From a virus, in the IMG/VR virus record IMGVR_UViG_3300045282_000052, positions 1 through 47,906 of that record: a stretch of 47,906 nt of DNA; one strand, given 5' to 3'. The notes under the pieces are model-generated. The model was not told the origin of the DNA. It was given only the letters and a program-made list of their open reading frames with translations, and made no database searches. Below, one piece after another: positions 1-47,906 of this stretch. Positions within the stretch are counted from its first letter, which is position 1. Each line of letters begins with the position of its first letter. The translations under genes and the position numbers were made by a program.

Positions 1-62
1 GTCCCGGCCAATCCGCCCCTACCTAGGGCTTGCCAGCATCTTGCAACGGGCATTCGAGTTGT

Positions 63-77: not shown

Positions 78-81
78 GCCG

Positions 82-92
82 TTGACGTAAGT
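82..92 (+). promoter_or_regulatory. TTGACGTAAGT element, divergent control region
   Basis: TTGACGTAAGT occurs here (and in the terminal copy at 47866-47876) on the + strand and again at 47279-47289 on the - strand. A shorter TTGACGTAA is at 47375-47383. TTGACG resembles a -35 hexamer, but no good -10 lies at the right spacing here. Copies facing both transcription directions in the same gene-free region suggest a shared promoter or regulator element. The 9-mer also occurs once inside a structural gene near 34853, so chance recurrence is possible. Confidence 0.4.
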
Positions 93-122
93 GCTTGTGG
101 GGAAAGGGGAAGGGGGCGAGTG

Positions 123-10905: not shown

Positions 10906-11225
10906 TTCATCTCACCGACAGAATCACCGTAGCCGATTTCCTCGACGCTGGCGCGTGCTTTGAAGGCGTGAAAAAATTCGTCTCAGACACCAAGCAGATC
11001 GCCGGAAATGTCGCCGACCTCTCTGACGAAGCCAGAGAGTTTTTCGACGGGTACGGGTACGGGGACGGGTACGGGGACGGGGACGGGTACGGGTACGGGG
11101 ACGGGTACGGGTACGGGTACGGGGACGGGTACGGGGACGGGTACGGGGACGGGGACGGGGACGGGTACGGGGACGGGGACGGGTACGGGGACGGGTACGG
11201 GGACGGGGACGGGCAATGTGAATAA
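10902..11225 (+). CDS. Asp-Gly/Tyr-Gly repeat protein
   Basis: 107 residues from GTG 10902. Residues 1-48 form a short conserved-looking head ([19 protein letters not shown]), whose GACxEG motif echoes the Imm-5-like protein at 2909. Residues 49-104 are 28 consecutive dipeptides, each DG or YG, ending in QCE. The repeat is encoded by 28 hexanucleotides (GACGGG or TACGGG). Such tails are hydrophilic and probably disordered or sticky; the function is unknown. Confidence 0.7.
11046..11213 (+). repeat. 28-unit (GAC/TAC)GGG hexanucleotide array
   Basis: 28 uninterrupted hexamers, each GACGGG or TACGGG, in frame in the gene above. The coding strand therefore has 28 runs of three or four G separated by AC or TAC, a dense G-quadruplex-type pattern. 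Unit number can change without frameshift. Confidence 0.95.
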
Positions 11226-16928: not shown

Positions 16929-17195
16929 ATGGACCCGCAAGTCGCCGCCAGGATCGCTTGCCACGATCAGAAGATTCAAGAGCAAATGGAATGCTTCAAA
17001 CGAACGTTTGACACGGACCCGCAAAAGGTCTACGAGGTCATGCGCCAAACGACCTTGTTTCTGAAAGACCAGGAAGCAATTGCGAATGCGACCAAATATG
17101 GCCCGGCGATGATGGCGACTTCGATGGCCGGGATAGGAATGTACCTTCTTTACGAGCATCTTGCCAGATGGGAAGACGAGGCCAAGGAAAGCTAA
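16929..17195 (+). CDS. hypothetical protein with one possible membrane segment, 88 aa
   Basis: Starts MDPQVAARIACHDQKIQEQ after GGAGGAAAAG. Residues 55-78 (AMMATSMAGIGMYLLYEHL region) form a hydrophobic stretch that could span a membrane, preceded by a charged helical N-terminus. It could be a small membrane protein or minor structural protein. It is the last + strand gene and ends tail-to-tail with the giant - strand gene, overlapping it by 4 bp. Confidence 0.65.
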   Translation: MDPQVAARIACHDQKIQEQMECFKRTFDTDPQKVYEVMRQTTLFLKDQEAIANATKYGPAMMATSMAGIGMYLLYEHLARWEDEAKES

Positions 17196-17205
17196 CGCGG
17201 CCTCG
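17177..17205. terminator. inverted repeat across convergent stop codons
   Basis: CGAGGCC (17177-17183) pairs with GGCCTCG (17199-17205) around a 15-nt loop that contains both convergent stop codons. It is symmetric, so it could slow transcription in both directions, though no T-run follows on either strand. Confidence 0.4.
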
Positions 17206-20200
17206 CCCGTCTCGGCTCATGAACCTGAATCGACATGCCAAGAAGACCCAGCAGACTAACCGCAGTCCCCTTCGGCATTCCAAGATCAACCATCGCTTCG
17301 TAAACGTCCCGCGCGAACAGCGGCGTAGTAACCTGCATCGCTGTCTGCGCGGGCGTTACTCTTTGGCCGACAACGTTCTGGCCGGTCAACTGGTCCAAAG
17401 CGGCTCCAGGGATGGGGGCCAGCTTGCCCCTCGCGAACCTTCCTACCACGCTCGCGGTATCATCTCGACCGAAAGCAACCGGCGCTCGCAAGGAACGAAC
17501 AACTCCGGTGTTCGTCTTGGTCGATTGGCTGAATACGCGGCTCAAAAAGGTTCCCGTGTTGGCAAGCCCGCCCGTGAAGTCAAGGCGAGTGTTGCCCATC
17601 TTCAGTTTGAGAAAGTCGGTCGCTCGCGGGTCTTTCTCGAAGGTGAACCCGGCAGCGGAGGCCAAGCCGACCACGACGCCAAGGCCAACGGCAAGACGGG
17701 CGTATTCCTTGGCAACTTCAAGGCGGGCACGCGGGGCTGAGGTTCCGATCTGGGTCCACAAGGGCTGGCCGAGGAGCAGTTGAAACCGGGAGATCGCCCA
17801 CTTGGGAGCGAAGAACGTATGGTTTAACAGCGTGGCGGCTGGCTCCATCTTGCCAAGCGGCCCTCGCCCGGTGGAGACATTGGCCCAATTCGCGATGATA
17901 CTGGCCTCCGCTGGCGTCAATTTTCCATTGGTCGATAAGGATTCCGCCATTCCCTTGAACGTGTCGAAGCGAATCCGGTTGAGGATGGTCTGATAAGCCC
18001 GCTCGGAAGCCCTCGTGATATGGCCGACCACGGGAACCTTGCCGATCACGTTGGAAAGAAATCCTTCCTCCCTGCCACTCGACTTTCCTTCCGTGCTGCT
18101 GGTTATCTCAAGGCCAGCCGGTTCCGCAACCTTGAACATCGGATCGTGCCGGATTTCATAGAGCGCCCGCTGGGCCACGTCTTCCGAGAAGAACGACCGG
18201 AACATCTCCGGGATCGCCTTTGAGGTTCGGACGGGGTGAGACAACATCCCGACCATGCCCTGCCGAAGAAGCGGGAAGTCAATCGAGGCCATCAGGGACT
18301 TCGGAATACTGACCGCTTCCCCGGCCATTCGCAGAGCCTTGACCGGCCACGGGGCACGGGCCTCCCGGTCCTTTTGCAACTGCGTCTTTATCTTGGTTTT
18401 GATCCTCGTCAACTCGAAGTCGATATCCGAAGGCTCGCCCGGCTTGACGGTGCCTGCCTTTTCTGCGGCGTCAAGTTTGTCCTGAAGCTCCTTGATCTTG
18501 GCGGATAGTTCAGCAATCTCGACCTTTTCAGCCTCGGTCAGCGGACGGCCTAGTGCGGCTTCCTTGCTCTTGAGCAAACCGCGAAGGGAGAAGTCTTCGG
18601 CAATCAGGAGCCGCCGCAATCGGAATGAGCGGCCCGCTTCGCTGCCAGACAGGGACGCGGCTTTATCGGCCTTGTCGAGTAGTTCAGACAACTCGCGTTC
18701 CCTAACATCGTGGCCGTTGATAGTGGCTTCGTCGGCCTTTTGAGCGAACGACCGCACAAAATCCAGCATGGCCCGCTCGTGTTCATTGCGCAGAGCCGTC
18801 ATGTGGTAATCGAGCAGCGCGTTCTCTTCTGCCGTTGCCGGACGAGGGTTCTTGTTCAATTCTTCCACGAGGCGACTTGCTGCCGTTGGGTCTTTTTCGA
18901 GGGCATCCATTGCCTTCTGCCAAACCTCCGGGTCCGAGCGAGCTTCTTGTGCGAGGATCGGTTCCTTGCCCATCTTGACTCGCTCGGCATCGACGTGTTC
19001 GTAGGCCAAGGCTGTCAGTCGCCCTGGTCGTCCTGCTCCGGAGGCGTCTGGTTGTCCGCCGCTGGGGAGGATTCTCCGCTCGGCTGCTGTGACGGGTCGG
19101 CCAAATCCAGATTCGGCGGGTGATTTCGGCATCATTTCTTCGCGAATATATTTGGCTAGGTCGGCTCTACCATTCTGCTCTGCCTCCTTTGCAATATTTT
19201 CAAGTTGGCTCTTTGGGGAAGAGTCGAATATCCATTGGATGTTAAAGGTTTCGGCTTTCTTCCAGTCTTCCGCCGACATTACTCCTGATCGCTCTCCTCC
19301 GGAAGTGTCTGGTTGTCTTCCGTTGGCGGCATCTCGGCCTGCTGGTTCTCCTGTTCTTGGGGGAGCGGCGGCGGGCGCATTCCCTGCTGTCCTGGACTCA
19401 GCGGACGGAGCGGCTTCAGCGCCTTGAGGGGCTTCAGCATCCCGACCGACTTCAGGAGCCGCAACCTCTGAATGAGCTTCCCTTTCAACTTCACTTTTAA
19501 CGCCTGCAACGTCTTCGCGTACTTTGGCGGGCGCAAGCCCGGAAGACCGCGCGGCAGCGAGAGCTTCAGCTTCGGCATTGGCTATCTCCTCTGGAGTTAC
19601 TCGCGCCAAGTATTCAATCGCTTCTTGCGGAGAATGCCCGGCATCCTTGAATACTTTCATTATTTCGACAAGCGTCTGCTGTTCGGACTCTTGGCTCTGT
19701 GGACGCTTGGCCCTCTCCTCGAAAATACGGTCGAGGGCCAAGTCCAGTTCCTTGCCGTACTTATTGGCGATGAATTGCTCGCCTAGTACCCGCCCGCTGG
19801 CTGCGTTGCTGGTTTGCTTAGGTATAACGACATGATGGAAAACCGCATCGTCAGACATCGGATGGGGCGTATGCGAATCAGCCATCTTCTCTCTTATCGT
19901 CTCCCACGACCAACCTTTCTCGCCAGGGGATTGCTTCGCTCCGGCAGCTAAATCTTGCCGACTGCCTTCAAGATGGCCGCTCTGAATCATTTTGCCGACT
20001 TGTTTCTTGAACTCGGTAAGTGTCACATCTCCTTGGAGCCTGTCCTTGACCGCATCATAAAGATCACTGATAAAAACCTTGTGAACTGTTGGGCCAGTAA
20101 AAGGCTCATTCCCGAAATGATCGATGATGTTTTGGCCTGCTTCGTGAATGAGTCTAGCAAAAGCCTGAGCGTCATGCAGTGACACTTTCTCTGTTAATAT

Positions 20201-23200
20201 CCTCCTGCCGGTTGCGTTGCTGCTGGCTGAGGCAGGTGCATTGGCCCCGACGTTGGCTTCGTTGCCGGGCCGATTAACTTCGGGCTGCCCGGTGGGCGCT
20301 TGCCCGGCTGAGGCTGGAGGGCTTCCTTGGTCCGGAGCAACAGGCCCAGCCCCTTGCCCTGCGTTTGGTGCGGCTTCACCTTGAACGGCTGACGGCCCCG
20401 CAGCCTCGCTAGGACGCTGGAGATCGGTTCCACCGATATTTGCTTGACCTTCTTCGGGTCCAACTTTAGTAATGCCGCGAAGTTCGCCACGCGCCCTTTC
20501 CCCACGAGCTTCTCGTTCGGACTTATGAGCTTTAAGCCCTGCTTCTGCTTGTCTAACATCGGTGCCAACTCCAAAAGAGAAATCTGCTCCTATTAAATGG
20601 GAAACGCTCCCATCCTTTTCTTCGACGACGATTATCGTCTCGCGGAGAATCTGCCTTGCCGTTTCAAGTTGCTGTCTAAGAACTTGCGGATCGCCGCCCC
20701 GGTGCAGGAACTCGTCTCCCTTTTCGTGGTAGGCATCCACGCCCGCCGCCTTCAGCGCCTCGGCCTTGGCGTTCAACAGGGCATCGCCAGCCGCATAACC
20801 GAAGCGGTCATTGAAAGCTTTCAGTCCGTCCGCATCCGAGAAGCCGACGACGGGAGATTTCGGAGCCTCATCGAAGGCCCGCTTGTTCGGAAGATCGACC
20901 GTCTGCGAGGTCAGCAGTTCCTTGCGGGCTTCCTCATGCGTCATGTCGGCAACGCGGCGGCGCTCGCCTTGACGCCTTTCGACCGGAACTTCAACGGTTT
21001 GCTGGCGGCGTTCGGCTGATCTTTGCCCCATCGTTGCGACCAGTTCGACGGGAGGCAATCCAAACTCGGCCCGCTTCGTGTTCAGCGCGTCAACCGTTTC
21101 TTTTAACTTGGCGAAGTCCGGGGCCGACCCTTCACCCTTATACCGAACCTGCTTCAGAGCCGGGTCCATCTTCGGAGCGTTCTTGTTGTAGACTTTGGCA
21201 ATGCCTTCTCGTTCCTGAATAGTTCCGCCCGATTTCTCGATAGCGTTGCGGTCAAAGACGAGTGTTGCCGTTCCCTTCTCCGCGTTCGCATTCGACCTTT
21301 CGTGAGCCGGACCTAACTTCGATCCAGCCGTATCCGCCCACGTATCGATTGGCCGCATGGTGCCGCCTTCGAGGACTCGCTGGGCATCCCGAACAGACTC
21401 CTTCGGAGACTTGTAACTCAGCGTGTGGAACAACAGATTTTCAGGGGCTTGCGAACTTCGGCGACTTCGGTGCAGCCTTTCAGCAAGAGTCTGATGCGAT
21501 TCCATCGCAGCCGTCAACTCTGTTGCTGCCCGTTGCCTGCGATCTTTGGCAATTTGGGTGTCACCGCCCTCTGATTGTGCCGCACTATGCTCTTTTTGGG
21601 CAGCGTCAACTCTCTCGCGGGAAGCTGTCAATTCTGCGGATCGAGAAGCATCCATTCGCGGGTAGGAGGATTGTGAACTCTGCCCGCTCCCTTGCGCAGC
21701 CGCACCTTCCGCAGCAGCCTCGGTACGAAGTCGGTCTACCTCCGGAAGCGCCTGCTTATACGCTTTGTCCAACTCTCTGACTTTTGCCTTGGCCTCCGCA
21801 ATCTCTTTCGGGTTAGGGTTCACAAACTCCCTGGAAAGTCGCCGAAGATTAGCCTTTGCCTCGTCGAGTTGCCGATAAATCAGCCTTGATTGATTTTCTG
21901 CGGCATCTGATCGCTCCCTGGCCGTCATTGGTGGCTTAGCAGTCTGCCCAGGAACCCCCTGATTTGCCCCCGTCCCGGCATTCGGAGCGGTTTCGGCGGG
22001 ACTTCGGTTGCCTTGCGAGTTCCTGCCTTCCTGCTGCATCCTGGCCTGCTCATTGGCCAATCCAGTGTTGGCCTGATCGGGAGTCATTGGCGAATCGACC
22101 CGCGTGGCGGTTTCTGGGAGAGCGTCGGCTTGCGTTGCGGCAAATCTCCGGAGCAGAGGGTCAACTGCCGGGTTCTCGGAATACTGCTTCATGACCTCCC
22201 TGGCTTGCGATCTCGTCATGTTCGGGTTCTTGGCAAGGGCGTCTGCCATTGTTTTTTGGACGGCCTGAATTGCCTCGGCTGTGACCGACCTCGGCAAGCC
22301 GTTTTCGGACTGCTGGCGGGTATAGTCAAGGAAAGCGTCTGCATGTGCGCGGCCATTTTGACCCTCGTGCAAGGCTCCGAATGCTGAAAAGGTAAGAGCG
22401 GTAATCGCGGCCTGCTGGAACGCATTCTCCCTGCCGCCCGGTTTATCCCAATCGCGAACCAGTTGACCAATGGAACCGTACCCCGTCTCCCGACTGCGTA
22501 AGCCTACCAGCGTAGAGGCAACGTCGGCTGCTTGCTGCTCGGCAAATCCAATCGGGCCAGCGGCCCCGATCCGAGTTGCCATCGCTCGCATTCCGGTTCC
22601 GCGAGCAAGTCCGCTGGTCTGGCCGCCAAGCGATCCAAGAATAGCGACGTTGACCATTCCAAGGGCAAAGGCCGAAGGAAGACCTTCGATGTCCATTGGG
22701 TCGCGTCCAGCTTGGACATTATTCTGGGTCCATTCCGGTGCCCACATACCCGGCATCATGGCGGTAGTCGCGCCAACCCGGACTCCGGCTCGTCCCGCTT
22801 CGCCCGCCATGACAAGCGGAGAAGCAGCGCCTCGTCCGGATGCCCCGGCCAAATCTCCCAACTCGCCGCCAAGACCAATAGCCCTTGCACCGCGACCGAT
22901 AACTCCGGGGGCCTCGGCAGCAGCGCCAATCGCCCTACCAGCCAACCCAGCTTCCCCGGCCATCGCCGCCACGCGCAGGCCGAAATGACCAACTTCCTCG
23001 GCAACTCCTCGCTGGCCTTCGAGTTCGCGCGAACGCTCGACTTGAGCAACGATGTCATAGTCGCCAGATTCGGCCCGGTGTTCGGCAATCCTGGCGGCTG
23101 CTCGCTGGTACTGGACTTCGATTCTCGTGTTGTGGTAATTGCTGGCCAAAGGCATCGCCTGAATTGCCGTGTGGACGGCGGGAGGGGACCAATCTCGGTG

Positions 23201-23407
23201 CCGCTCGCGGGCGATACGAAGTTCTCTCGCAGTTTCCCATCGCTTTTGAAGGTCTGCCTGATCGAGATCGGGATAAGCCGTCTGGAAGTCGTTGGCAACT
23301 GCGGACCACGGGGCAGGCGCAGGAACTTCGTCACGGGCCGGGACATCGCTCGACTCGCCGCTAAAAGCAATTCCACCGAAGAGGGTATCGAGAGGGCCAT
23401 CAGCCAT
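17192..23407 (-). CDS. giant polyvalent ejection-type protein with GGDEF-like domain
   Basis: 2071 residues. Residues 130-300 are Gly/Ala-rich and hydrophobic, as in membrane-interacting ejection proteins. Residues 490-650 are coiled coil. Residues 835-965 match a GGDEF (diguanylate cyclase) fold: DLPNKRAF, then FSDADGLKAFNDRFG and AGDALL, the signature loop KGDEF (896-900; 20708-20722), then SFGVG and a final Ala/Lys helix. The first Gly of GGDEF is Lys, and no RxxD inhibitory site is seen. Residues 1000-1370 are linkers and helical modules; 1690-2065 match the large-polyvalent-protein C-terminal region (LPD38-like: GMVGMLSHPVRTSKAIPE, ANWANVSTGRG, NHTFFAPKW). Last gene of the late operon. 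It is probably packaged and ejected, then acts in the host; enzyme activity is unproven. Confidence 0.8.
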   Translation of the reverse strand: MADGPLDTLFGGIAFSGESSDVPARDEVPAPAPWSAVANDFQTAYPDLDQADLQKRWETARELRIARERHRDWSPPAVHTAIQAMPLASNYHNTRIEVQYQRAAARIAEHRAESGDYDIVAQVERSRELEGQRGVAEEVGHFGLRVAAMAGEAGLAGRAIGAAAEAPGVIGRGARAIGLGGELGDLAGASGRGAASPLVMAGEAGRAGVRVGATTAMMPGMWAPEWTQNNVQAGRDPMDIEGLPSAFALGMVNVAILGSLGGQTSGLARGTGMRAMATRIGAAGPIGFAEQQAADVASTLVGLRSRETGYGSIGQLVRDWDKPGGRENAFQQAAITALTFSAFGALHEGQNGRAHADAFLDYTRQQSENGLPRSVTAEAIQAVQKTMADALAKNPNMTRSQAREVMKQYSENPAVDPLLRRFAATQADALPETATRVDSPMTPDQANTGLANEQARMQQEGRNSQGNRSPAETAPNAGTGANQGVPGQTAKPPMTARERSDAAENQSRLIYRQLDEAKANLRRLSREFVNPNPKEIAEAKAKVRELDKAYKQALPEVDRLRTEAAAEGAAAQGSGQSSQSSYPRMDASRSAELTASRERVDAAQKEHSAAQSEGGDTQIAKDRRQRAATELTAAMESHQTLAERLHRSRRSSQAPENLLFHTLSYKSPKESVRDAQRVLEGGTMRPIDTWADTAGSKLGPAHERSNANAEKGTATLVFDRNAIEKSGGTIQEREGIAKVYNKNAPKMDPALKQVRYKGEGSAPDFAKLKETVDALNTKRAEFGLPPVELVATMGQRSAERRQQTVEVPVERRQGERRRVADMTHEEARKELLTSQTVDLPNKRAFDEAPKSPVVGFSDADGLKAFNDRFGYAAGDALLNAKAEALKAAGVDAYHEKGDEFLHRGGDPQVLRQQLETARQILRETIIVVEEKDGSVSHLIGADFSFGVGTDVRQAEAGLKAHKSEREARGERARGELRGITKVGPEEGQANIGGTDLQRPSEAAGPSAVQGEAAPNAGQGAGPVAPDQGSPPASAGQAPTGQPEVNRPGNEANVGANAPASASSNATGRRILTEKVSLHDAQAFARLIHEAGQNIIDHFGNEPFTGPTVHKVFISDLYDAVKDRLQGDVTLTEFKKQVGKMIQSGHLEGSRQDLAAGAKQSPGEKGWSWETIREKMADSHTPHPMSDDAVFHHVVIPKQTSNAASGRVLGEQFIANKYGKELDLALDRIFEERAKRPQSQESEQQTLVEIMKVFKDAGHSPQEAIEYLARVTPEEIANAEAEALAAARSSGLAPAKVREDVAGVKSEVEREAHSEVAAPEVGRDAEAPQGAEAAPSAESRTAGNAPAAAPPRTGEPAGRDAANGRQPDTSGGERSGVMSAEDWKKAETFNIQWIFDSSPKSQLENIAKEAEQNGRADLAKYIREEMMPKSPAESGFGRPVTAAERRILPSGGQPDASGAGRPGRLTALAYEHVDAERVKMGKEPILAQEARSDPEVWQKAMDALEKDPTAASRLVEELNKNPRPATAEENALLDYHMTALRNEHERAMLDFVRSFAQKADEATINGHDVRERELSELLDKADKAASLSGSEAGRSFRLRRLLIAEDFSLRGLLKSKEAALGRPLTEAEKVEIAELSAKIKELQDKLDAAEKAGTVKPGEPSDIDFELTRIKTKIKTQLQKDREARAPWPVKALRMAGEAVSIPKSLMASIDFPLLRQGMVGMLSHPVRTSKAIPEMFRSFFSEDVAQRALYEIRHDPMFKVAEPAGLEITSSTEGKSSGREEGFLSNVIGKVPVVGHITRASERAYQTILNRIRFDTFKGMAESLSTNGKLTPAEASIIANWANVSTGRGPLGKMEPAATLLNHTFFAPKWAISRFQLLLGQPLWTQIGTSAPRARLEVAKEYARLAVGLGVVVGLASAAGFTFEKDPRATDFLKLKMGNTRLDFTGGLANTGTFLSRVFSQSTKTNTGVVRSLRAPVAFGRDDTASVVGRFARGKLAPIPGAALDQLTGQNVVGQRVTPAQTAMQVTTPLFARDVYEAMVDLGMPKGTAVSLLGLLGMSIQVHEPRRARPR

Positions 23408-36144: not shown

Positions 36145-37191
36145 TTACGAGGGGTATGTCGTGCCATTACTCAAAACGAACCCGCCCTCGCGGATATTCT
36201 TCGACACCCATTGCAGCGTGCAATCGATGAAGTACGAGGCCACGGTATGCTGGCCGGGAGTGATCGGAACGTTCGTCTCGCGCATCCATTCGCCGCGAAG
36301 GATGTACGTCTTGAACCAGCCCCAATTGATGCCGTAGAACGGGTTCGTCGTGTCCCGATCCAGCCACGGAACCCACGTCACGGGAAGACGGCGGAACAAA
36401 GTCTTGCCGTCGTACTTCGCGATGTCGGGGCCGAGGTTGTCGTTCTGGGACTCGCACGCTTCCTCAAGGGGCTGGATGACCGCGTAATTCGTGTAGAAGC
36501 CCCACTTGTCGCCCGTGTTCGGCGTGGGAATACCTTCGGTCGGCGGACGGAAGCGGGTCTTCACCGCCGCCTGACGCGCCTCGCGAATGAAATCGTCGCG
36601 GGAAACTGCCGCGAATGGAGCCGCCCAATTCGCCCAACCTGCATACTGGGTCTTGGTCAGACCTGCCTTGTTTGGGAAACCGGAAAGCGTGTCGCCCGTG
36701 AAACCGCGCGTGGCATTCTTCGTCACCCAATAGGGCAGGCCGAAAGGCGTCTTCGCATCGGTGGGCGAGGGAGCGCCCCAGAACAGGCTCTCGACCAGTT
36801 CGGCCAGCGAGATCATCGCCTTGATGCGCTCCGTCTTCACGAAGTCCACGATGCGGGCCGGTTCCCGGTTCATCTCCATCAACTGACGGATAATCATGTA
36901 CGAGGTCTGGATATGCCGCCAAACTGTGCTGGCCTGCACCATCCCATCCACCATGTTCACGTTGTCCGATTCCGCCAAGCTGACGGTGCGGGCCGCGTTG
37001 GACTGATTGACGAGGACGTTGTACTGGATGCCGGAACCTGATTCGAGAACTGCCCGGTTCTCGTTCAGAAGCTCCTGCATCGCGACATGCTCTTGAATGT
37101 TCGAGCTAATGTCGGTGAACTTCGGCTTGCCCAAATCCTTCAGGGTATCGGCTACAAAATCGCCAACGTTTTCAGCTTGAATCACTGGCAT
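36145..37191 (-). CDS. major capsid protein
   Basis: 348 residues directly after the scaffold gene. Typical of podovirus coat proteins of HK97 fold: N-terminal arm (QEHVAMQELLNENR), long helix TVWRHIQTSYMIIRQLMEMNREP, then FGLPYWVTKNATRGFTG and a beta-rich end LRGEWMRETNVPITPGQHTV (each within its own segment). CAAAAAGGAAACTACG before the ATG is a strong ribosome-binding site. No decoration domain insertion is seen. Probably one of the most highly expressed genes of the window. Confidence 0.85.
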   Translation of the reverse strand: MPVIQAENVGDFVADTLKDLGKPKFTDISSNIQEHVAMQELLNENRAVLESGSGIQYNVLVNQSNAARTVSLAESDNVNMVDGMVQASTVWRHIQTSYMIIRQLMEMNREPARIVDFVKTERIKAMISLAELVESLFWGAPSPTDAKTPFGLPYWVTKNATRGFTGDTLSGFPNKAGLTKTQYAGWANWAAPFAAVSRDDFIREARQAAVKTRFRPPTEGIPTPNTGDKWGFYTNYAVIQPLEEACESQNDNLGPDIAKYDGKTLFRRLPVTWVPWLDRDTTNPFYGINWGWFKTYILRGEWMRETNVPITPGQHTVASYFIDCTLQWVSKNIREGGFVLSNGTTYPS

Positions 37192-37215: not shown

Positions 37216-38196
37216 CTACTTCAGCAACCCTGCTCGGATTTCTTGATCGCCTGTGTACGTTGGCGCAACACCCATCTTCGCCGCCAAGTTCCGGAGAGCC
37301 TTTTCCTCGCCCGGTGGAAGCTCCCCACCTCCTCGATTCGTCGGAACCTCCAATGCACCTTCTCGGTACTCTTCTTCGGTAAACTTCGGCTTGACGGCGG
37401 GAGCCTTGGGTTTACCGTTCCCGTTGGCGCTTGGGATGGCGTTGTAATCGTTGGCGGGAGCGACTTCGACTGCCGGGCCATACATTTCGAGGGCGGCGGC
37501 TTTGATCTTTTTCTGCATCATCTTCGGACTGTCTTCCGAAGAGAGATTGGCAGCGCCCAAAATGGCCATGCGGCGTTTGCGGAAAGGGTCGTTCGGCTGC
37601 ATCTCCAGACCGCTGCCCTTGCCGAAGAACTTCTCGTAGGGAGCGCCCAATGCCTCGAAGCCGTCATCGAAGATTTCGGCATTCGAGCGAGCCGTCCGGC
37701 GCTGCTCTTGCTCGACGAGTTGGCCTTGCGACTGGCGAAGCTCCTTGTTTTCTTTGGCGAGCTTCTTTAGAAGGTTAGCCATGCGCGGGTCAAGGTCAGC
37801 TTCCAAGTCGCCAAGGCCAAGCTCACCTTCGACCGGGGGGACTTCGGGAGGAAGAGGACGCACTTGCCCGTCTTGAATGGTTCGCTGAAGTGCCGCCTGT
37901 TTGCGATTCTCGTCTTGACGCAGCTTCATCTTCCACAGCATGTCGCTGAGCTTCTGCGTGGGAAGTTCGGCAACGTCGTCATCGGCCAATCCGAAATAGG
38001 CGGCGGCGTCGAGAATATGCTGAGGGTGTTGGGGCTTGACGGGGACTTCAACCGGAGTTTCGACGGGAGCTTCTTGGGGAATGAATCGCCCGGTGGCCGG
38101 GTCGCGAGGAGTTTCGATGGGTGCGGACCCTAGCAAGCCAAGGTCGGCTGTTTCTGGAGGAGTCGCTACTTCGCTCGGACTTTGTTCGTTTGGCAT
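37216..38196 (-). CDS. scaffolding protein
   Basis: 326 residues: Pro/Glu/Ala-rich N-terminus (residues 1-55), a helical charged centre (DMLWKMKLRQDENRKQA, KKLAKENKELRQSQGQLVE coiled coil), and a proline-rich C-terminus with helix at the end. Position just before the capsid gene and composition fit a capsid scaffold. A weak promoter candidate lies upstream. Confidence 0.75.
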   Translation of the reverse strand: MPNEQSPSEVATPPETADLGLLGSAPIETPRDPATGRFIPQEAPVETPVEVPVKPQHPQHILDAAAYFGLADDDVAELPTQKLSDMLWKMKLRQDENRKQAALQRTIQDGQVRPLPPEVPPVEGELGLGDLEADLDPRMANLLKKLAKENKELRQSQGQLVEQEQRRTARSNAEIFDDGFEALGAPYEKFFGKGSGLEMQPNDPFRKRRMAILGAANLSSEDSPKMMQKKIKAAALEMYGPAVEVAPANDYNAIPSANGNGKPKAPAVKPKFTEEEYREGALEVPTNRGGGELPPGEEKALRNLAAKMGVAPTYTGDQEIRAGLLK

Positions 38197-38276: not shown

Positions 38277-38633
38277 TCAGAAAAAGGAAATCTGGGTAAG
38301 GCCGGTCGTGTCGTCCGCCGCGTCAATGAACAAGTCCGAGGGCCGATTTGCCGTATCGAACAAGACTACAGAAGGCGCAGCCGGGGGAATATTTATTCCC
38401 GCGTCTCCGCTCGTAGTCTTCGCTCGAAGGGCCAGCGCGTTGCCAATCGGCGGCGAGATGATGACGCCCACCGTGTTGCCGGGAACTGGAATGGTATTTA
38501 GCCCGGAGGCTAAAGTTAGCGAAGTTATGGATGGCGTGATCGAACCGGCAACAGTGATCGGCCCGAAGGTAAAAGAGCCGAAGGGAAGCGTTGCCGCTCC
38601 GGTTGCCTGAATGGTCAGAGTTGCGGCGGACAT
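38277..38633 (-). CDS. hypothetical beta-rich protein, 118 aa
   Basis: Start at 38633 (GGAGATAATT upstream). Sequence of Thr, Ser, Gly, Ile and Leu with regular strands (PFGSFTFGPITVAGSI, TVGVIISPPIGNAL); resembles small virion decoration or cement proteins. Location is between a secreted protease and the scaffold gene. No family recognised. Confidence 0.6.
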   Translation of the reverse strand: MSAATLTIQATGAATLPFGSFTFGPITVAGSITPSITSLTLASGLNTIPVPGNTVGVIISPPIGNALALRAKTTSGDAGINIPPAAPSVVLFDTANRPSDLFIDAADDTTGLTQISFF

Positions 38634-38635: not shown

Positions 38636-39907
38636 TTATCTCCTTCGTCCAAGAATGCCAACCCTTGCCGGAATATTGCATTGGCCATTTGCACAATTAC
38701 TGGTTGTTGCCTGAACGGAAGCAGGGCGAGGAGCCTGAACCTCGGATACTTTTCGAGGAACTTCCGACTGTATCACCTTCCTTGCTGGAGGACCGGCTTC
38801 AGTGGAAACTTGCTGCCCGTACAAGGATTCCCATTGCGCATCGGTAAGTTGCTGTGACCACCAATCACCCTTGGTCTGCTTTTTTAATGGCGGCTCTTGC
38901 GGGCCATTCAACTCGTCGAGCAGGTCGCGGACCTTCTTCATCGTCCCCACTGGAAGAACCTCGTAAGTTCCGTCCGAGCCGGGGCCGAAACCGTTAAGGG
39001 TGATTATCCGCTGTCCAGTCGGCGGCGGGGGTGGAGGAGGAGGCGGGGGGGGCGGCGGCGGAGGAGGAGGAAGCACGTTGACCGTACACCAGATAGCCTC
39101 GGTCCCAATTTGATTTGCTCCATATTCGACCCAGATAAAGCCTCCTTCGCCCCATTGCGTTGACCACTGGTTCTGGCAAAGGACTGCTCCCTTTGGGGAT
39201 TTGCTATCGTCCCAGCCGATCATCATGTAAGCGTGATCTACCTGTCCGCCGTGGTTCTTGAACAAGCCCCCTGTGTAACTATCCCAGCCGTCCGCGCTCC
39301 CAGCAACGCTGATCGCTCCGTACTGGAATATCGCCGTTTTTAGTTCCTGATAGGTCGGGAAGCGGTCGCTCTGGTCTGAAGTGGCGAATCCGAAGTCAGC
39401 GATCTTCCAAAGCTTCGTGCCCTGCTTCAATTTGCACGAGGAAGATCGCGCGAGGTACGGCCCGTAATCCGCCTCGGTCGGCAGGCCATTCGACTTACAC
39501 CATGCAATGATGTCGTACTCATCCCCGCCATTGCAGCCACCCCAATTATGGCAATCCATTCCGTACTGCTCAGCGAACCCAGCGCCGATGGACGCCTTGT
39601 ATCCAGCCTTGTAATGCGATGCGCTGCACGTCATCGCACCGGAGAATTGGTAACAAGAACCGCAGTTGCCCTGATCCTTGACGGCGGGCACCCAACCAAA
39701 GTCGCGGCAGTCGAATTTTGATGGCGGGGTAACGCTTGCCATTAACGAACGCATACGGTGATCGTGCCGCTGAAAAGCCTCGGCGTGACGAATGGCCTTC
39801 TGCTCTTTTGTTGGCGGAACATGACCACGCCCGCGCGGAGGCTTCACGTCCTGAGCAAGTGCCAAAGAGGACAGTAACAGGCTGAGGATAATCGCTATGG
39901 TCCGCAT
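38636..39907 (-). CDS. secreted papain-family (C1A-type) cysteine protease
   Basis: 423 residues. Residues 1-19 are a signal peptide (MRTIAIILSLLLSSLALAQ). The papain signature is complete: oxyanion Gln79, Cys85 in QGNCGSCYQF, GGCNGG at 123-128, His225 in VDHAYMMIGW, and Asn246 in CQNQWSTQWGEGGF. A run of 17 prolines (280-296) links to a C-terminal 125 residues ending NCANGQCNIPARVG. It follows three small membrane proteins in the operon, in the place where a lysis enzyme is usual, and no peptidoglycan hydrolase was recognised elsewhere. Proteolysis of a host envelope or of virion proteins are the options; the signal peptide favours the former. Confidence 0.85.
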   Translation of the reverse strand: MRTIAIILSLLLSSLALAQDVKPPRGRGHVPPTKEQKAIRHAEAFQRHDHRMRSLMASVTPPSKFDCRDFGWVPAVKDQGNCGSCYQFSGAMTCSASHYKAGYKASIGAGFAEQYGMDCHNWGGCNGGDEYDIIAWCKSNGLPTEADYGPYLARSSSCKLKQGTKLWKIADFGFATSDQSDRFPTYQELKTAIFQYGAISVAGSADGWDSYTGGLFKNHGGQVDHAYMMIGWDDSKSPKGAVLCQNQWSTQWGEGGFIWVEYGANQIGTEAIWCTVNVLPPPPPPPPPPPPPPPPPTGQRIITLNGFGPGSDGTYEVLPVGTMKKVRDLLDELNGPQEPPLKKQTKGDWWSQQLTDAQWESLYGQQVSTEAGPPARKVIQSEVPRKVSEVQAPRPASVQATTSNCANGQCNIPARVGILGRRR

Positions 39908-39909
39908 AG

Positions 39910-40215
39910 TCAGTCCTTCGGCTTTAGTTGTGGTGTCGGTAAAACGGTCGGCGCTCGCCCCTTGTCTTCCGCCTTTACTTCGGCGACTGGCTCAGGGGCG
40001 TAAACGGTTCTCGTTGCCGGGACGGAGAAGTAGGTCAATGCCCATGTCGCGGCGGAGACAAGGACAGCATTCAAAAGGTGAGCGGTCTTTGGGTTGGCGG
40101 CGAGCCAATTCGACAGACCCTCCCAGAACGACGGCTTGGCTTCCAGCTTGGCGACCTCTTCCTTGAGTGCGTCTATCTGGGCCTGCATCTTTTCCATCGG
40201 GGTCGGTTCGGTCAT
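39910..40215 (-). CDS. membrane protein, holin or spanin-like, 101 aa
   Basis: ATG 40215 with AATAAGGAG upstream. N-terminal coiled coil (KMQAQIDALKEEVAKLEAK), one hydrophobic segment about residues 45-67 (HLLNAVLVSAATWALTYFSV) and a Pro/Lys-rich C-terminus outside. One membrane span with coiled coil fits a holin or a structural membrane component. It lies between two other small membrane proteins and the protease, hence the putative lysis cassette. Confidence 0.6.
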   Translation of the reverse strand: MTEPTPMEKMQAQIDALKEEVAKLEAKPSFWEGLSNWLAANPKTAHLLNAVLVSAATWALTYFSVPATRTVYAPEPVAEVKAEDKGRAPTVLPTPQLKPKD

Positions 40216-40224
40216 TGGCACTCC

Positions 40225-40383
40225 TTATTGAAGTGGTGCGCCGTAAACTTTCCAGCCAAGCAAGCCAAGGAGTACAAATAGTAAACCCTGAGTTGCGTAA
40301 ATCGCGTATGGCCACTGTCCGCCGAAAACGATGGAGATGAGCCAGAGGATCATCAAAATCCAGAACAAGATTCCCATCGGCAT
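40225..40383 (-). CDS. two-span membrane protein, 52 aa
   Basis: Starts MPMGILFWILMILWLISIVF, followed by GGQWPYAIYATQ and a second hydrophobic segment ending GWKVYGAPLQ. Both halves are strongly hydrophobic, giving two spans with a short loop. Similar very short two-span proteins occur near lysis genes of many phages. AAAGG is upstream. It is below common length cut-offs. Confidence 0.65.
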   Translation of the reverse strand: MPMGILFWILMILWLISIVFGGQWPYAIYATQGLLFVLLGLLGWKVYGAPLQ

Positions 40384-40397
40384 AATACACCAACCTT

Positions 40398-40655
40398 TCA
40401 ATCGTGCGGAAGTGGCGGCAAGGGTTCTGCCTTCTGGTCGGCCCTGCCCTGCTCCTTGCCAGCGGAAAAAGCCGCTTCTTTTGTCGCGTGTACAAGGGCG
40501 TCCTTCATGGAATTCGTGGCCTTTTCGATTGTCACCACGTTCTCCTTGACCTCCTGAATATCCGCCCTAGCAAGACTGGACCTTCGGCTATCAAGAAGCT
40601 CCTTGACGACCATGTAAATCAAACCGATGATTGCCAGCCAAACTGCATCGCTCAT
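40398..40655 (-). CDS. membrane-anchored helical protein, 85 aa
   Basis: Starts MSDAVWLAIIGLIYMVVKELL, a single N-terminal span, followed by a charged amphipathic helix (KENVVTIEKATNSMKDALVHA) and a Pro-rich end. GGAGGCAGGC precedes the start. Architecture fits a class-III-like holin or spanin partner. Directly follows a terminator on the - strand. Confidence 0.6.
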   Translation of the reverse strand: MSDAVWLAIIGLIYMVVKELLDSRRSSLARADIQEVKENVVTIEKATNSMKDALVHATKEAAFSAGKEQGRADQKAEPLPPLPHD

Positions 40656-40663
40656 GCCTGCCT

Positions 40664-40704
40664 CCCAAGAAAAGGCGGCTGGCCGCTCTCAGGTGCCAGC
40701 CGCC
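40664..40704 (-). terminator. intrinsic terminator, - strand
   Basis: On the - strand GGCGGCTGGC and GCCAGCCGCC form a 10-bp stem (arms 40695-40704 and 40674-40683) followed by TTTTCTTGGG. It lies between the coiled-coil gene (40715-41083) and the putative lysis cassette. Confidence 0.75.
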
Positions 40705-40714
40705 CCGAACGACC

Positions 40715-41083
40715 TTAGACGCCAGGCGGTACGACCGGAGGCGTCAGGGCGTCCAGCGCACTCACCTTATCGGCGACGGCGGCTGCCTTCGCCTCGATAC
40801 CATCCAGCAACGCTTGATCGGCTGGCGTAATCTGGCCAGCCGAGTTTTGCAGGGCCGTGATTTGCGCCTTGAGATTGTCCAGGTCGCCACTGATACCGGA
40901 AACAGCGGCGTCAACCTTGTCGTTGTGCGCCTTCATCTTGTCGGCGAAATCCGAAATCGCGCTCATGATCTTCTCCATTTTGTGAGATATTTCCTTCTGC
41001 CAAGCAACGCTGCTTAGCTGACTTTCGGTGATCTTGTGCAGCATCTCGTGGAGATGTTGAAGGCGTTCTTCGATGTTATGCAT
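40715..41083 (-). CDS. coiled-coil protein, 122 aa
   Basis: Starts MHNIEERLQHLHEMLHKITES and is almost entirely heptad-like coiled coil (KMEKIMSAISDFADKMKAH, DNLKAQITALQNSA), with a Pro/Val end. Such proteins can be tail or head assembly components or minor holin partners; not recognised. It ends just before the T-tailed hairpin. Confidence 0.65.
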   Translation of the reverse strand: MHNIEERLQHLHEMLHKITESQLSSVAWQKEISHKMEKIMSAISDFADKMKAHNDKVDAAVSGISGDLDNLKAQITALQNSAGQITPADQALLDGIEAKAAAVADKVSALDALTPPVVPPGV

Positions 41084-41094: not shown

Positions 41095-41427
41095 TTAGTC
41101 GCCGTAGGAACCGTTATTATCGTGGAACCCCAGCGATCTCATTATATCCCGTCTCTGCCCCCTGTCCTTGAGAATCATCCTTCCATCCTTCGGATCGTAT
41201 TCGCTGGCGATCCCCCGCTTGCGGTCCCGCTCCATCATTTCCGGTATCTGTTCCGGATGACAAGCGAGCGCGTCGGACTTCATCGGCCAACAAGCCGGGT
41301 TCTGTGCCTGCATCGGCACTCCCAGCGGCTTTTTCGGGAATGTGGTATCGAACTCGGCCTTCGTGACTTCGATGCCGTCGATGAAGTAAGTCTCGCCGCG
41401 CGATCCATAAACGACTTTGCCTTTCAT
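41095..41427 (-). CDS. hypothetical protein, 110 aa
   Basis: Starts MKGKVVYGSRGETYFIDGIEVT, overlaps the portal stop by 4 bp. Contains VTKAEFDTTFPKKP and CWPMKSDALACHPEQI, the pattern of a short conserved phage protein (often described as having an AFDxxxP-type segment) with unknown role. Follows portal in the packaging segment. Confidence 0.7.
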   Translation of the reverse strand: MKGKVVYGSRGETYFIDGIEVTKAEFDTTFPKKPLGVPMQAQNPACWPMKSDALACHPEQIPEMMERDRKRGIASEYDPKDGRMILKDRGQRRDIMRSLGFHDNNGSYGD

Positions 41428-43244
41428 TGCACCATCCCTTGAGGAGTTCCGTTCATTTGACCATTCGTGGGCTTGGCCGATCTCATGTTCGAGGCGAGAG
41501 CTTCTTTGGCTTGCTGGCTGTCTCCGCCGACCGAACGCCGCGTGATCTCGGTTTTCTTCTGCGCGGGAGCGCCCATCTGGTCGGACGGACCTTGCGAGCT
41601 TTGCTGTTCGGGAGGCTCCCGCATGGTGATGATCTCTTCCAGGTCCGGCATGTCCATGTACTTCGCGATTTTCTTTAGGAAGGCGTTCATGTCGAACGCC
41701 ACGCCCTGCGCCTGGAGAGTTTGAAGCTGAGGAATAACAACCGTCGTCACTACCTGATTCAACATCGCCAGCCGCATCTGGGGCGTCTGATGCTGCATCG
41801 AGTACGGGTCGATCTTGATGTCGATGTCGTCCCAACTCGCCTGCGCCCTTTGCTGCGGAGTCACTTGCCTCACAATCGAGAACTGCGGAAGTCCCGGCAA
41901 GGCAAACTTGGACTTCATCGTTTTGGTCGGATGATGATGATGGAACCAGATCGCCGCCCGAAGAATGTCCGCCGTGTAACTTATCGTGATGTCCTGCATA
42001 TCAGTGACGCCACGCGAGCTATTCGCGTTGAGCATCGTATCCTGCGTGGCCGTCTTCGATTGCGGGCCAAGGCCAGCCAGAATATCCAAGTTCCCGGCCA
42101 GTTTATTGAAGTGCCCGCCAAGCTGCTCCATCAACTGACCGATCATCTGGTCGGGTTGGTCCGTCACGATATGCTTCAGGCTCTCCGGGTTGTCGATGCG
42201 AACCACGTCGCCATCATTGCACTCGATCAACCGCTTGCCGTCCGCGTCGGCTCCCCCGGCAACAAAGGTAACGTGCTTCGAGCGGCGGGCCTGCTCGATC
42301 ACCTTGCGGCAAATATTGTTGATCGCCAAATGAAGATCGTACAAGTCCTGCATCGGCCCCTTCGGACACCAGTTGCCCGGTATCATCTTGTAGCCGAGAA
42401 TGTGATAGGGTCCGCAGTCGGGGCCGATCCACCTTTGCACCTTGAGCGCGCGAGCGCCATACTCGCCCGCCTTCTTGTCCTCGGCACCGGCAATGTAATC
42501 GTCGGCCAAAGTGACGATGACCTTGTGACGAGGAAGGTAGATTTCCCACAGGTCGATGAAGTCCTCGTACTCCTCAGTATCGGCGTAGTACCCTCTCCCC
42601 ATGACCGAGATACGTTCGTCGCCTTCGAGGTTGAACAACTTATCGTCCGTGGCCTCCAACTGCTTGCGACCTTTGCCGTACTCCTTCGACTGGCGGACCA
42701 CTTCGAGGGGAACCCGGAAGCGATGCCCAACAAAGCCGAAGTTGCGTTTGTCCCGTGCGTGAACATCGCAAACGAAATCGTCCGGGTCTACCGGCTCGAT
42801 CATCACGTCGCCAGCGCCAATGCTCCATGCCGTATTCGCCGAATCCGCAGGAGTCGCAAGGGCCACCTTGCAGACGCCGAACGAATAGAACGCATCCCGG
42901 ACAACCCGCTGAATCGTATTGGCAAGGTTGATGTCTTCGATGTATTTGTTGGCCCAGGTTTCCTCGGCAGAGATGATCGGTTTGGACGACTTATCGAACG
43001 TCGAAAGCATCACGCGAGGATTCTTCGGGACAAGAAGGCTGCCGTAAACTTGGTCGTAAAGCGAGAGGAGGTTGATCGGTTGAGACTGCTGAGGAACCGT
43101 GTCGGCCCCCCAATAAGGACCGGCACAGGCTCTCACCATGTCAGTGCGAATTTCCCGCTGCCGACGCATGACGAGGCGGGAACGCTGCATCGCAACGCAC
43201 AAGCGGCCTAAATCAAGGTCTTTCTCTTTGTTCTGCCGTGCCAA
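41424..43244 (-). CDS. portal protein
   Basis: 606 residues from TTG 43244 (the only in-frame start before an upstream stop; the next ATG would be at residue 19). Features of podovirus portals: N-terminal helical region, LVPKNPRVMLSTFDKSS, DIDIKIDPYSMQHQT, and a C-terminal helical barrel plus Gln-rich tail. Position directly after terminase supports this. It forms the dodecameric ring through which DNA enters and leaves. Confidence 0.8.
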   Translation of the reverse strand: MARQNKEKDLDLGRLCVAMQRSRLVMRRQREIRTDMVRACAGPYWGADTVPQQSQPINLLSLYDQVYGSLLVPKNPRVMLSTFDKSSKPIISAEETWANKYIEDINLANTIQRVVRDAFYSFGVCKVALATPADSANTAWSIGAGDVMIEPVDPDDFVCDVHARDKRNFGFVGHRFRVPLEVVRQSKEYGKGRKQLEATDDKLFNLEGDERISVMGRGYYADTEEYEDFIDLWEIYLPRHKVIVTLADDYIAGAEDKKAGEYGARALKVQRWIGPDCGPYHILGYKMIPGNWCPKGPMQDLYDLHLAINNICRKVIEQARRSKHVTFVAGGADADGKRLIECNDGDVVRIDNPESLKHIVTDQPDQMIGQLMEQLGGHFNKLAGNLDILAGLGPQSKTATQDTMLNANSSRGVTDMQDITISYTADILRAAIWFHHHHPTKTMKSKFALPGLPQFSIVRQVTPQQRAQASWDDIDIKIDPYSMQHQTPQMRLAMLNQVVTTVVIPQLQTLQAQGVAFDMNAFLKKIAKYMDMPDLEEIITMREPPEQQSSQGPSDQMGAPAQKKTEITRRSVGGDSQQAKEALASNMRSAKPTNGQMNGTPQGMVQ

Positions 43245-43459: not shown

Positions 43460-45316
43460 TCACCACGCCTCTTGCTTGCGCCGGTTCTCGTGCTGCTCGC
43501 GCCGCCACGCCAGCGACAAAACCTGCACTTCTTCGGCGATCCGCTTCTCTTCGAGTATAACCCCGCCCTTCGCCATTGTCCACGCAATAGCGTCCGCCAT
43601 CGTCCGATCCCCGTGATTCACCCGCGCGCCCGAAGGGTCGTTGCCGCCCTCGATATTCTGATGTTCGATCTTCCCTCCCTGACCATACCGAAAGAAAAGG
43701 CATTCCTTCAAGGCGTACTTGCACGGGTTCAAAAAGCTGTGCTTGTATAAAGCCTCCTTATAATGCGAGAGAAGAAGCCGAAGGCGTTCCCCGCCGTCGT
43801 TCATCCAGCCGGGCCGGTCGGACTTCTTGAATTTGACGTTGCCCTCGTCGGCCATGTAGTAGAGTCTGCGATAGCCAAGTTCCAAAACCCGCGAGCCGAA
43901 TTTGATTCCGGGGCCGGGAATTTCCCAACCCAGCATTGCCCCATCATCGATCTCGTTTTTGAATAGCCAGCACAGAGCAACCATCTTCGCCGCCGCGTCT
44001 TCTTCCTTGATGAACGGGTCCACGTAAGCGCCGACCTTGTTCCCGGTCCTGCCGTCCAGAATAGAGAAGCAGGTCGGGGTGGCTCCCGTGCCCGTGGCAA
44101 TGTCCCCGGCGATCAGATAGAAACTTGGCGGAGGGCAGCCCTTGGCGTCCGGGTATATCCACAAATGCAACCGGCCATCACTCTTCCTTGTCAGGCGGAT
44201 AGGTTTGCCGGTGTTCGGGTCGAATTCCACGTCGCCCTTCCAGACCGGCTCGCGTGCGAACTCACGCTCCAACTTGGAAAGTAAGAGTTGATCGAAGAAC
44301 TGCTTGGACGCCCCCATGCGGTCGATGTCAAGGTCCATCGCAATCGCGCGGGAGTCTTTGCGGACCCGGCACTCGTTGTCGTACCACGGACTTCTTAGCT
44401 TTCCGTCCATGACGAAGTTGAAGTCGGTGCCGTGGAAGAAGAACGGCTGAACGGTTTCAACGTCTCCCGTCTCCGGGTTGTAACGCTTATGTTCGACCTT
44501 CTTCTTCGTGTCGTTGTACTGGTAAAGACCAGCGTTCTTGGAAGGGTGCATCGACCAGTGAAGGCGCAGCTTGGCCACGTCTACCCGTTCGGCCAACTCA
44601 CCTGCGCAGTCACCGTCATCTCTGTGAGTAAAGTTAAAGATGCGGCAAAGGGATGTGTCGCGGGTATGTCGAAGAAGCCCATACGCAGTTTTACGATCCA
44701 TCGCGGAGAACTCGTCAAGGAACGCCCCAGTTGCACGTCCGCCTGTACCGGAGACTTTCGTGCTGGCTTCGCCCGTGATCGTCGAGTCGGTTTTCGGGTA
44801 GCCAAAGTACATATCCTTTCGGTCGCAATGAGGAGCCAGCCAGTCCGGAAGATACTTGTGGATGAAGTCGATCTTCCAGAAAAGCGAGTTAGGAGAAAAA
44901 GAGTCCACCGCCTCTGCCGAACGTGAGATCATCAAGAACTGCTTATTGGGGTGAAATTGGCATATCCAGTCCATCACCATCAGGCACATCCACGAAGCGC
45001 CCATCTCGCGGGACTTCTCGATCACCAAGTCTTCGCGGTTCTCTATCGCCCAGAGGATTTTCTGGAAAGCGCCCGTGCGCGGGTTGTCTTGAAAGTTCCA
45101 GGTGATGAACGGTTCAACCTCATGGCCTTCTCGGAGGGGGTTGAACTGGAAGACGAACGTGTTGATGTAGAAGATGATGTCGCGACGGCAGGCTTCGATC
45201 ATTGCCCACTGAGCGTCCTTGTCCTCGCGGCAACGCTTGAGAACCCACTTCCGCCAGTCCATGTTTTCGAGCGGGTCTTTCGGGACTTGCAGATGGTCTT
45301 TACCGGGAGACAGCAT
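43460..45316 (-). CDS. terminase large subunit
   Basis: 618 residues from ATG 45316 (AAGGAAG upstream; GTG 45319 is the alternative). ATPase: variant Walker A EKSREMGASW (about residues 100-109) and Walker B AFLDEFS (198-204). Nuclease: AGDIATGTGATP carries the first metal-binding Asp, and the final NHGDRTMADAIAWTM carries the last. It pumps DNA through the portal and cuts concatemers. The Lys-to-Ser variation in the P-loop is common in terminases, which place the catalytic Lys/Arg differently. Confidence 0.9.
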   Translation of the reverse strand: MLSPGKDHLQVPKDPLENMDWRKWVLKRCREDKDAQWAMIEACRRDIIFYINTFVFQFNPLREGHEVEPFITWNFQDNPRTGAFQKILWAIENREDLVIEKSREMGASWMCLMVMDWICQFHPNKQFLMISRSAEAVDSFSPNSLFWKIDFIHKYLPDWLAPHCDRKDMYFGYPKTDSTITGEASTKVSGTGGRATGAFLDEFSAMDRKTAYGLLRHTRDTSLCRIFNFTHRDDGDCAGELAERVDVAKLRLHWSMHPSKNAGLYQYNDTKKKVEHKRYNPETGDVETVQPFFFHGTDFNFVMDGKLRSPWYDNECRVRKDSRAIAMDLDIDRMGASKQFFDQLLLSKLEREFAREPVWKGDVEFDPNTGKPIRLTRKSDGRLHLWIYPDAKGCPPPSFYLIAGDIATGTGATPTCFSILDGRTGNKVGAYVDPFIKEEDAAAKMVALCWLFKNEIDDGAMLGWEIPGPGIKFGSRVLELGYRRLYYMADEGNVKFKKSDRPGWMNDGGERLRLLLSHYKEALYKHSFLNPCKYALKECLFFRYGQGGKIEHQNIEGGNDPSGARVNHGDRTMADAIAWTMAKGGVILEEKRIAEEVQVLSLAWRREQHENRRKQEAW

Positions 45317-45879
45317 CACGCTTCCTTTCCCGGCGTGCCTTCTTCAGTGCCCTCGCCAACAACAGCCTCGCCCGCTCCACTCTCGATAGTTCCCGCAAAA
45401 CGTCCATCAGCCGGGTTTCTTTTAGCGGACGCTTTAAGTGCCGCTTTCTTTTCATTTGCATCTTTGTATTCCTTGATGAGCCGGTCCAGCAGTTCAACCG
45501 CTGTATCCGACCCCTTATCGATCACCGGAGCCTCCGCAAACTCCTTGAACGCCTCAAGCTCCAGATGCCGCTCCTTTATCTCCGCATCCTGAATGTGTTC
45601 CTCCATCCTTGCATAGTCCTTCATGAACTCCTTGGGTGAATCCTCCATCATCTTCCGGTAGGCCCGCTGCAAAGGATGCTTGTCTTCTTCTTTATTCTTC
45701 TTCAAGACGTGACGCATCGCCACCAGAAGGGGAAACTTGAGTTGCTTGCCAAGACGCCGACGCTTCCTCGCCCAGAGCTTGTGACATACCCGGCAACACT
45801 TTGATCCGTTCGGTCGGATATGCAAGTTCTCCGGAGTAAGAGGGTGGCCCTTGATACAGTGGGTTTTCAGTTTGGCCAT
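45316..45879 (-). CDS. putative small terminase with N-terminal zinc module
   Basis: 187 residues. Residues 6-40 form a zinc module (CIKGHP...RPNGSKCCRVCHKLW) that also forms the C-terminus of the HNH nuclease at 1833. The rest is helical: MMEDSPKEFMKDYARMEEHI and VELLDRLIKEYK, the pattern of small terminases that bind packaging sites. It precedes the large terminase with a 1-3 bp overlap. The unusual zinc head may supply the DNA-binding part. Confidence 0.7.
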   Translation of the reverse strand: MAKLKTHCIKGHPLTPENLHIRPNGSKCCRVCHKLWARKRRRLGKQLKFPLLVAMRHVLKKNKEEDKHPLQRAYRKMMEDSPKEFMKDYARMEEHIQDAEIKERHLELEAFKEFAEAPVIDKGSDTAVELLDRLIKEYKDANEKKAALKASAKRNPADGRFAGTIESGAGEAVVGEGTEEGTPGKEA

Positions 45880-47785: not shown

Positions 47786-47906
47786 TCCCGGCCAATCCGC
47801 CCCTACCTAGGGCTTGCCAGCATCTTGCAACGGGCATTCGAGTTGTGTATGTAGTACATACGCCGTTGACGTAAGTGCTTGTGGGGAAAGGGGAAGGGGG
47901 CGAGTG
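47786..47906. repeat. 121-bp terminal direct repeat, right copy
   Basis: Identical to 2-122; see that entry. Confidence 0.97.

Follow-up and report, generated by a model that had tools for sequence, protein, structure and literature searches.

How would a phage burst its host if its genome held no recognizable enzyme for cutting peptidoglycan? This question is raised by the IMG/VR virus record IMGVR_UViG_3300045282_000052, a complete tailed-phage record of 47,906 bases that was analysed over its full length (the window; W in comparisons), where a minus-strand run of genes at 40655-38636 leads through three small genes to a papain-type protease gene. With a probability of roughly 0.6, we read this run as a lysis cassette in which the protease stands in place of an endolysin and is aimed at a protein wall. 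Under this model, at least one of the small membrane proteins would act as a timer and disturb the inner membrane late in infection, and the papain, exported by its leader to the periplasm, would cut the Cys-rich YTV-type structural protein wall of a planctomycete, or the links between wall and membrane, after which the cell would burst. Any broad protease may suffice for this cleavage, which would explain why relatives have kept the membrane partners while trading one catalytic gene for another: a C1A papain, an enzyme of one of two other papain-superfamily groups, or a sedolisin.

The identity of the window enzyme is the starting point of this argument. An initial annotation, made from the letters alone, had described a papain-type protease with a complete Gln79, Cys85, His225 and Asn246 set, and this description held: Pfam profile PF00112 matches residues 62-269 at 113.8 bits (cut-off 20.7; E = 1.6e-32), the four residues are present and are identical in 4/4 aligned C1A members, and the closest match in the Protein Data Bank (PDB) is a cysteine protease (2.9e-19). 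The protein consists of a putative leader (residues 1-19), a spacer of ~40 residues, the catalytic domain, a Pro-rich linker (280-297) and a small C-terminal region. Its leader is hydrophobic, ends in ALA with Q following, and by eye resembles a Sec signal (hydropathy 1.88 at residue 3); leaders and membrane spans were judged throughout by Kyte-Doolittle hydropathy and by eye only. The catalytic set and the sequence are those of the C1A papain/cathepsin family, but a Pfam scan (E <= 0.01) detected no I29-type inhibitory propeptide, and the stretch that separates the leader from the catalytic domain is only ~40 residues long. The I29 propeptide is not universal within the C1A family. Pfam gave the C1 papain domain alone, and no muralytic catalytic domain was found in the protein. 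No close relatives of the papain were recovered in a direct scan of viral contigs, and the INPHARED matches were limited to four faecal records at 23-25% identity. Related papains occur in planctomycete chromosomes (4/392 genomes at E <= 1e-12); recent transfer of a C1A gene from host to phage was considered and rejected, as the chromosomal matches are at most 38% identical and the chromosomal papains on contigs L173, L174 and L177 have no cassette neighbours.

Comparison with related phages indicates that the enzyme is a regular but exchangeable component of the locus. Alignment of the major capsid protein yielded 116 relatives in viral contigs, 80 of which were kept; 17 besides the window share at least 50% capsid identity, and three of these on short contigs (L028, L031 and L068; 9.7-21 kb) were set aside, L068 holding a fragment of the G001-type protein. 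In the resulting set of 15 phages (14 plus the window; contigs of 29-52 kb), a cassette enzyme gene is present in 15/15 (capsid identity >=50%, contig >=29 kb), and 12 of the 15 enzymes fall into protease superfamilies: four are C1A papains (W, G002, G004, G007), seven belong to two other papain-superfamily groups, and one is an S53 sedolisin. The C1-like group (G010, G011, G012, G013), with Gln86, Cys92, His208 and Asn227 invariant, matches PDB papains at 2e-9 and the C1A profile at 2.4e-6, and is also represented in G021 (46% capsid identity). The second group, named 'NDQYGDC' (G003, G008, G015), matches C1A by profile at 9.4e-8, and its AlphaFold model, at a mean pLDDT of only 52.6, matches the papain fold, with 135 PDB chains matched at E <= 0.001 and a Z of 13.3 to xylellain (2.8 A over 179 residues). 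The sedolisin of G016 matches kumamolisin at 3.9e-37 over residues 32-352 and contains the catalytic Ser motif GGTSLATP. The suggestion in the initial annotation that lysis relies on proteolysis thus gains from the proteases of unrelated folds in the same cassette of relatives, lysis itself being a step that we infer.

Outside this set, the cassette enzyme was not found in G005 (a 19.6-kb piece) or in G030 (44% capsid identity). Among 44 records searched with PF00112, including several of those above, six match; two of the six, G048 and G049, came in through the papain query and show no relative of the capsid gene among the genes called on them. The capsid protein had no INPHARED match, and a terminase scan was likewise empty. 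A profile built on W and G002, then with G017, to represent a common C-terminal module behind the Pro-rich linkers gave no further member at a useful E-value, and the idea of such a module was discarded. In a papain-fold 'QLGDC' protein (L158:725-2698), an intein-like insert ending in ...GIITHNC interrupts the chain at the Cys presumed to be the active-site residue. Inteins favour active sites, so the insert would support that Cys as catalytic.

All four open reading frames (ORFs) of the run, the three small genes and the papain, are present on the minus strand with gaps of 2-14 nt, giving an operon-like arrangement in which 39910-40215 ends 2 nt ahead of the protease start. The membrane spans proposed for the three small genes were borne out by hydropathy, with one span in 40398-40655 (1.75), two in 40225-40383 (2.52 and 1.59) and one weak span in 39910-40215 (1.53), and a small membrane protein adjoins the enzyme, as in a holin-endolysin cassette. 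Across 16 records, 32 small membrane genes lie within four genes of the enzyme compared to 9.2 expected (P ~5e-5, the floor of 20,000 random draws of gene places); the count was zero for G021 and for G003, whose membrane gene scored zero since it had been called with a shorter start. Relatives of 40225-40383 occur in G004 (53%) and G021 (50%). When 1,152 proteins were searched with a profile seeded by the membrane genes immediately ahead of the G015 and G016 enzymes, window gene 40398-40655 (6.3e-5) and a G004 gene (8.9e-5) were the two non-seed matches below 1e-3. This family adjoins the sedolisin in G016 and the papain-fold 'QYGDC' enzyme in G015, and its members in the window and G004 sit in runs leading to a C1A papain; with one membrane family beside three enzyme types, the enzyme looks swapped behind a single partner. 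The cassette also changes position. It sits between the portal and scaffold genes in W, G001, G003, G007, G008 and G011-G014; in G004, G010, G015, G016 and G017 it precedes W38 within the tail genes, its place in G021 being close to this; and in G002 it follows the largest structural gene. Lysis modules typically move and are exchanged in such ways.

A peptidoglycan hydrolase elsewhere in the genome, which the initial annotation named as the finding that would count against it, did not emerge. The annotation had seen no lysozyme, amidase or transglycosylase motif, and Pfam agrees, with no peptidoglycan-hydrolase family among the 74 window ORFs (E <= 1e-3). In PHROGs, no lysis family was present for the window in the best 25 of 49 families matched, in the best 25 of 48, or for a set of 10 proteins queried. 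A 121-nt direct repeat at both ends indicates that the genome is complete, which makes the absence of a muralytic enzyme meaningful at the Pfam and PHROG sensitivity used. No hydrolase was found in the best 25 of 28 Pfam families for either set of non-core genes of at least 110 aa from relatives (76 genes of G001, G003, G004 and G007; 98 genes of G008, G010, G014 and G016), the remaining three families in each scan being no stronger than 0.00031 (G001 set) and 0.00018 (G008 set). These scans left out genes spanning the borders of 20-kb pieces, and the Pfam hydrolase scans left out G002, G011, G012, G013, G015 and G017. The 80 proteins of the planctomycete prophages P432 and P245, described below, also contain no peptidoglycan hydrolase (Pfam, E <= 1e-3). 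The absence is thus shared by the window with its papain and, apart from an S11 match in the G021 and G030 set described below, by scanned relatives whose cassette enzyme differs.

Relatives also connect the family to planctomycetes. A capsid scan of genome contigs gave no match, and a later search of the phylum with the capsid profile gave one match among 392 planctomycete genomes, on a 6.96-Mb contig of G432. The prophage there (P432), at about 3.0 Mb in the chromosome, contains terminase, portal and capsid genes and four more relatives of window genes (27-33% identity); to its right, by our reading, lie a gene resembling recombinases and chromosomal genes resembling ABC transporters. The planctomycete host put forward in the initial annotation is thus supported by a family prophage in a planctomycete chromosome; that the window's own host is a planctomycete would follow through its relatives. 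In P432, gene 13 was examined as a papain-like candidate on the basis of a GGSCYHAS motif seen by eye, which no match supports. A C1-like cassette occurs in an unrelated planctomycete prophage in G245, where we identified the cassette gene adjoining the C1-like protease with a Trypsin_2 match. By eye, the product of this gene (L171:18535-19668) is exported and joins a trypsin-like domain to a thioredoxin-like region behind it, Trypsin_2 being matched in one member; the latter region perhaps reduces disulphides of a Cys-rich wall.

An alignment of the C1-like group matched two contigs in a scan of genomes, L162 and L163. The first, from Planctomycetaceae bacterium UBA4732, matches at 65% identity, and there the gene has a neighbour of the family that also adjoins it in G010. 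Its locus (L162:4154-6193) encodes a Pro-rich protein, a C1-like protease and a hydrophobic-helix protein, with no phage genes recognized in 7.9 kb, which suggests a remnant or domesticated module. The genome of L163, G051, can be placed in the same phylum because the phylum search retrieved the same genome. A protein at L163:4852-5730, exported by eye, has the C-terminus ...SCANGACAAPTTSYRRGLFR, and the window papain ends (38636-38700) in ...NCANGQCNIPARVGILGRRR; the two share a CxxGxC...RR tail, possibly a tag used by planctomycetes for sorting or for the wall. The phage G016 encodes a TIGR02996 domain (1.5e-12), a model whose name refers to Gemmata obscuriglobus.

The walls of such hosts bear on what the enzyme could cut. 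Domains of YTV wall proteins were found in 4/4 carrier genomes and 0/14 control genomes. The peptidoglycan-synthesis gene mraY was above cut-off in one of the four carriers (G245), compared to 333/392 genomes of the phylum (340/392 at E <= 1e-30); three of four carriers without mraY against a background of 52/392 gives P 0.008, with carriers amounting to only four genomes, three of them also within the background sample. These counts agree with the protein-rich envelope proposed in the initial annotation, and the literature is divided over whether planctomycetes have walls of protein or of peptidoglycan (PMC4432640 versus PMC8567305, in the available portions of both). It is a tentative proposal, at slightly less than even odds, that this phage family breaks peptidoglycan-poor, YTV-walled planctomycetes with interchangeable proteases ('proteolysins') and that the load-bearing layer is protein. 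Bacterial walls are assumed to be peptidoglycan and phage lysis to cut it, and the planctomycete wall has been argued over for decades; if the proposal is true, phages would cast an independent vote in this dispute. Since phages must open whatever holds their host together, a protease-swapping family in whose scanned members no muralytic enzyme was detected makes the wall question testable with single purified enzymes, and enzymes for opening planctomycete cells would also result. No paper on planctomycete phage lysis or endolysins was found among the titles and abstracts listed in a search mostly without subscription papers, and PMC12596118, which surveys the lytic proteins of viruses, does not mention papain, cysteine or Planctomycet in its available portions.

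Several other functions could produce parts of this pattern. It is unlikely, although the best placed of the alternatives, that the enzyme aids passage through the wall without bursting the cell (non-lytic release) or opens the envelope at entry as part of the virion. The gene does sit among structural genes, and release of a planctomycete phage without lysis is reported in the accessible part of PMC10945688, but a leader, as the C1A members appear to have, is ill-suited to cytoplasmic packaging, and the linked membrane genes and moving cassette resemble lysis modules. Rather improbable is the idea that papain-fold enzymes cut peptidoglycan stem peptides, as CHAP, NlpC/P60 and LysA N5 probably do, and are divergent ordinary endolysins. 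To the extent that the sources were available, many wall peptidases have a papain fold (PMC10318531), N5 is a precedent (PMC3314691), and planctomycete peptidoglycan is reported (PMC4432640). Against this, the window enzyme is nearest to general proteases, three of the four carriers lack mraY, a trypsin-like gene lies within the P245 cassette, and a sedolisin occupies the same cassette in G016, a swap that favours a protein substrate over stem peptides. Least probable is an accessory secreted protease serving in receptor shaving (superinfection exclusion), grazer defence or nutrient supply; such a role is in keeping with the related papains of planctomycete chromosomes, but those on L173, L174 and L177 lack cassette neighbours, and retention in every member of the comparison set better fits an essential than an optional role.

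Other observations weigh against a proteolytic lysis cassette. Among 68 proteins of G021 and G030, one matches the S11 D-Ala-D-Ala peptidases (5.7e-13), and by an SxxK-like motif we assign it to G021 gene 6 (L144:5185-6861), which seems to encode a long protein with an S11-like domain three genes from the C1-like protease. Pfam can also miss divergent muralytic domains, for example inside the 2071-aa protein at 17192-23407. The enzymes of G001 and G017, members of a single family with 77% identity across 266 residues, have no usable fold model (pLDDT 40), no profile match and no protease assignment, their PDB matches falling mostly on a Gly-Ser linker and being uninformative; G014 was rejected as papain-like, its GSCVG motif having been seen by eye only with no supporting match. 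No leader is visible by eye on the non-C1A phage enzymes. On the host side, G050 and G051, both among the three carriers without mraY, are in many contigs and possibly incomplete, and G245 has mraY plus, alone among the carriers, a strong murG match near but below cut-off. Lysozyme-sensitive peptidoglycan sacculi and cells have been described in planctomycetes, including a Gemmata, by Jeske et al. (PMC4432640, in the portion available). Even so, a lysis cassette with a protease in place of the endolysin remains our preferred reading of the run.

Phage holin-endolysin lysis cassettes, such as lambda S-R-Rz, offer the closest general likeness: a tight run of small membrane proteins and one envelope-degrading enzyme, swapped as a module between relatives, with the difference that the window enzyme is a protease and no muralytic domain was found in the window by Pfam. 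PeiW and PeiP of methanogen viruses, named in the available part of PMC12596118, are likewise peptidases against a non-murein wall, but their substrate is the pseudomurein cross-link peptide rather than a wall protein. In mycobacteriophage LysA, the N5 domain belongs to the papain superfamily and has been given a role in phage lysis (PMC3314691, in its accessible portion); however, N5 is C39-like and sits within a modular endolysin directed at peptidoglycan, whereas the window enzyme is C1A.

On the right arm of the window (minus strand), the terminase and SU10-type portal genes are followed by a small conserved gene, the cassette run, a scaffold-like gene, the capsid gene and tail genes (Table 1).

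Table 1. Coordinates of features of the window discussed in the text.
Feature	Position	Strand	Basis or remark
End repeat, copy 1	2-122	+	121-nt direct repeat
End repeat, copy 2	47786-47906	+	121-nt direct repeat
Large terminase subunit	43460-45319	-	Position and conservation; PHROG terminase match in one window member
Portal protein, SU10 type	41424-43244	-	Pfam/PHROG match
Small conserved gene behind portal; upstream border of cassette slot in relatives	41095-41427	-	
Coiled-coil protein heading the run	40715-41083	-	Matches weak, below cut-off
85-aa one-span protein, holin-like candidate	40398-40655	-	Hydropathy
52-aa protein, two membrane spans	40225-40383	-	Hydropathy
Small protein with a Pro-rich C-terminus and a single weak membrane span	39910-40215	-	Hydropathy
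C1A papain-type protease with putative leader, export predicted, 423 aa	38636-39907	-	Pfam
Small protein downstream of protease, between cassette and scaffold-like gene	38277-38633	-	
Scaffold-like protein; downstream border of slot	37216-38196	-	By position
Major capsid protein; query for relatives	36145-37191	-	Position, conservation, related prophage

Elsewhere in the window, two low-complexity proteins arise from short tandem DNA repeats, one with a (D/Y)G-repeat tail (10887-11225) and one with an Ala-rich repeat (2909-3526). Phosphatase-like proteins similar to each other, placed by eye, are encoded amid the structural genes in G001 (L016:12925-13332) and G003 (L023:1332-1727), and Pfam DSPc was matched at 7.6e-11 in one member of the scan of the G001/G003 set. 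The early region of G004 (L024:1184-3920) probably contains a DUF2201 metallopeptidase/VWA gene, placed by eye from its HExxH motif, adjoining an AAA ATPase.

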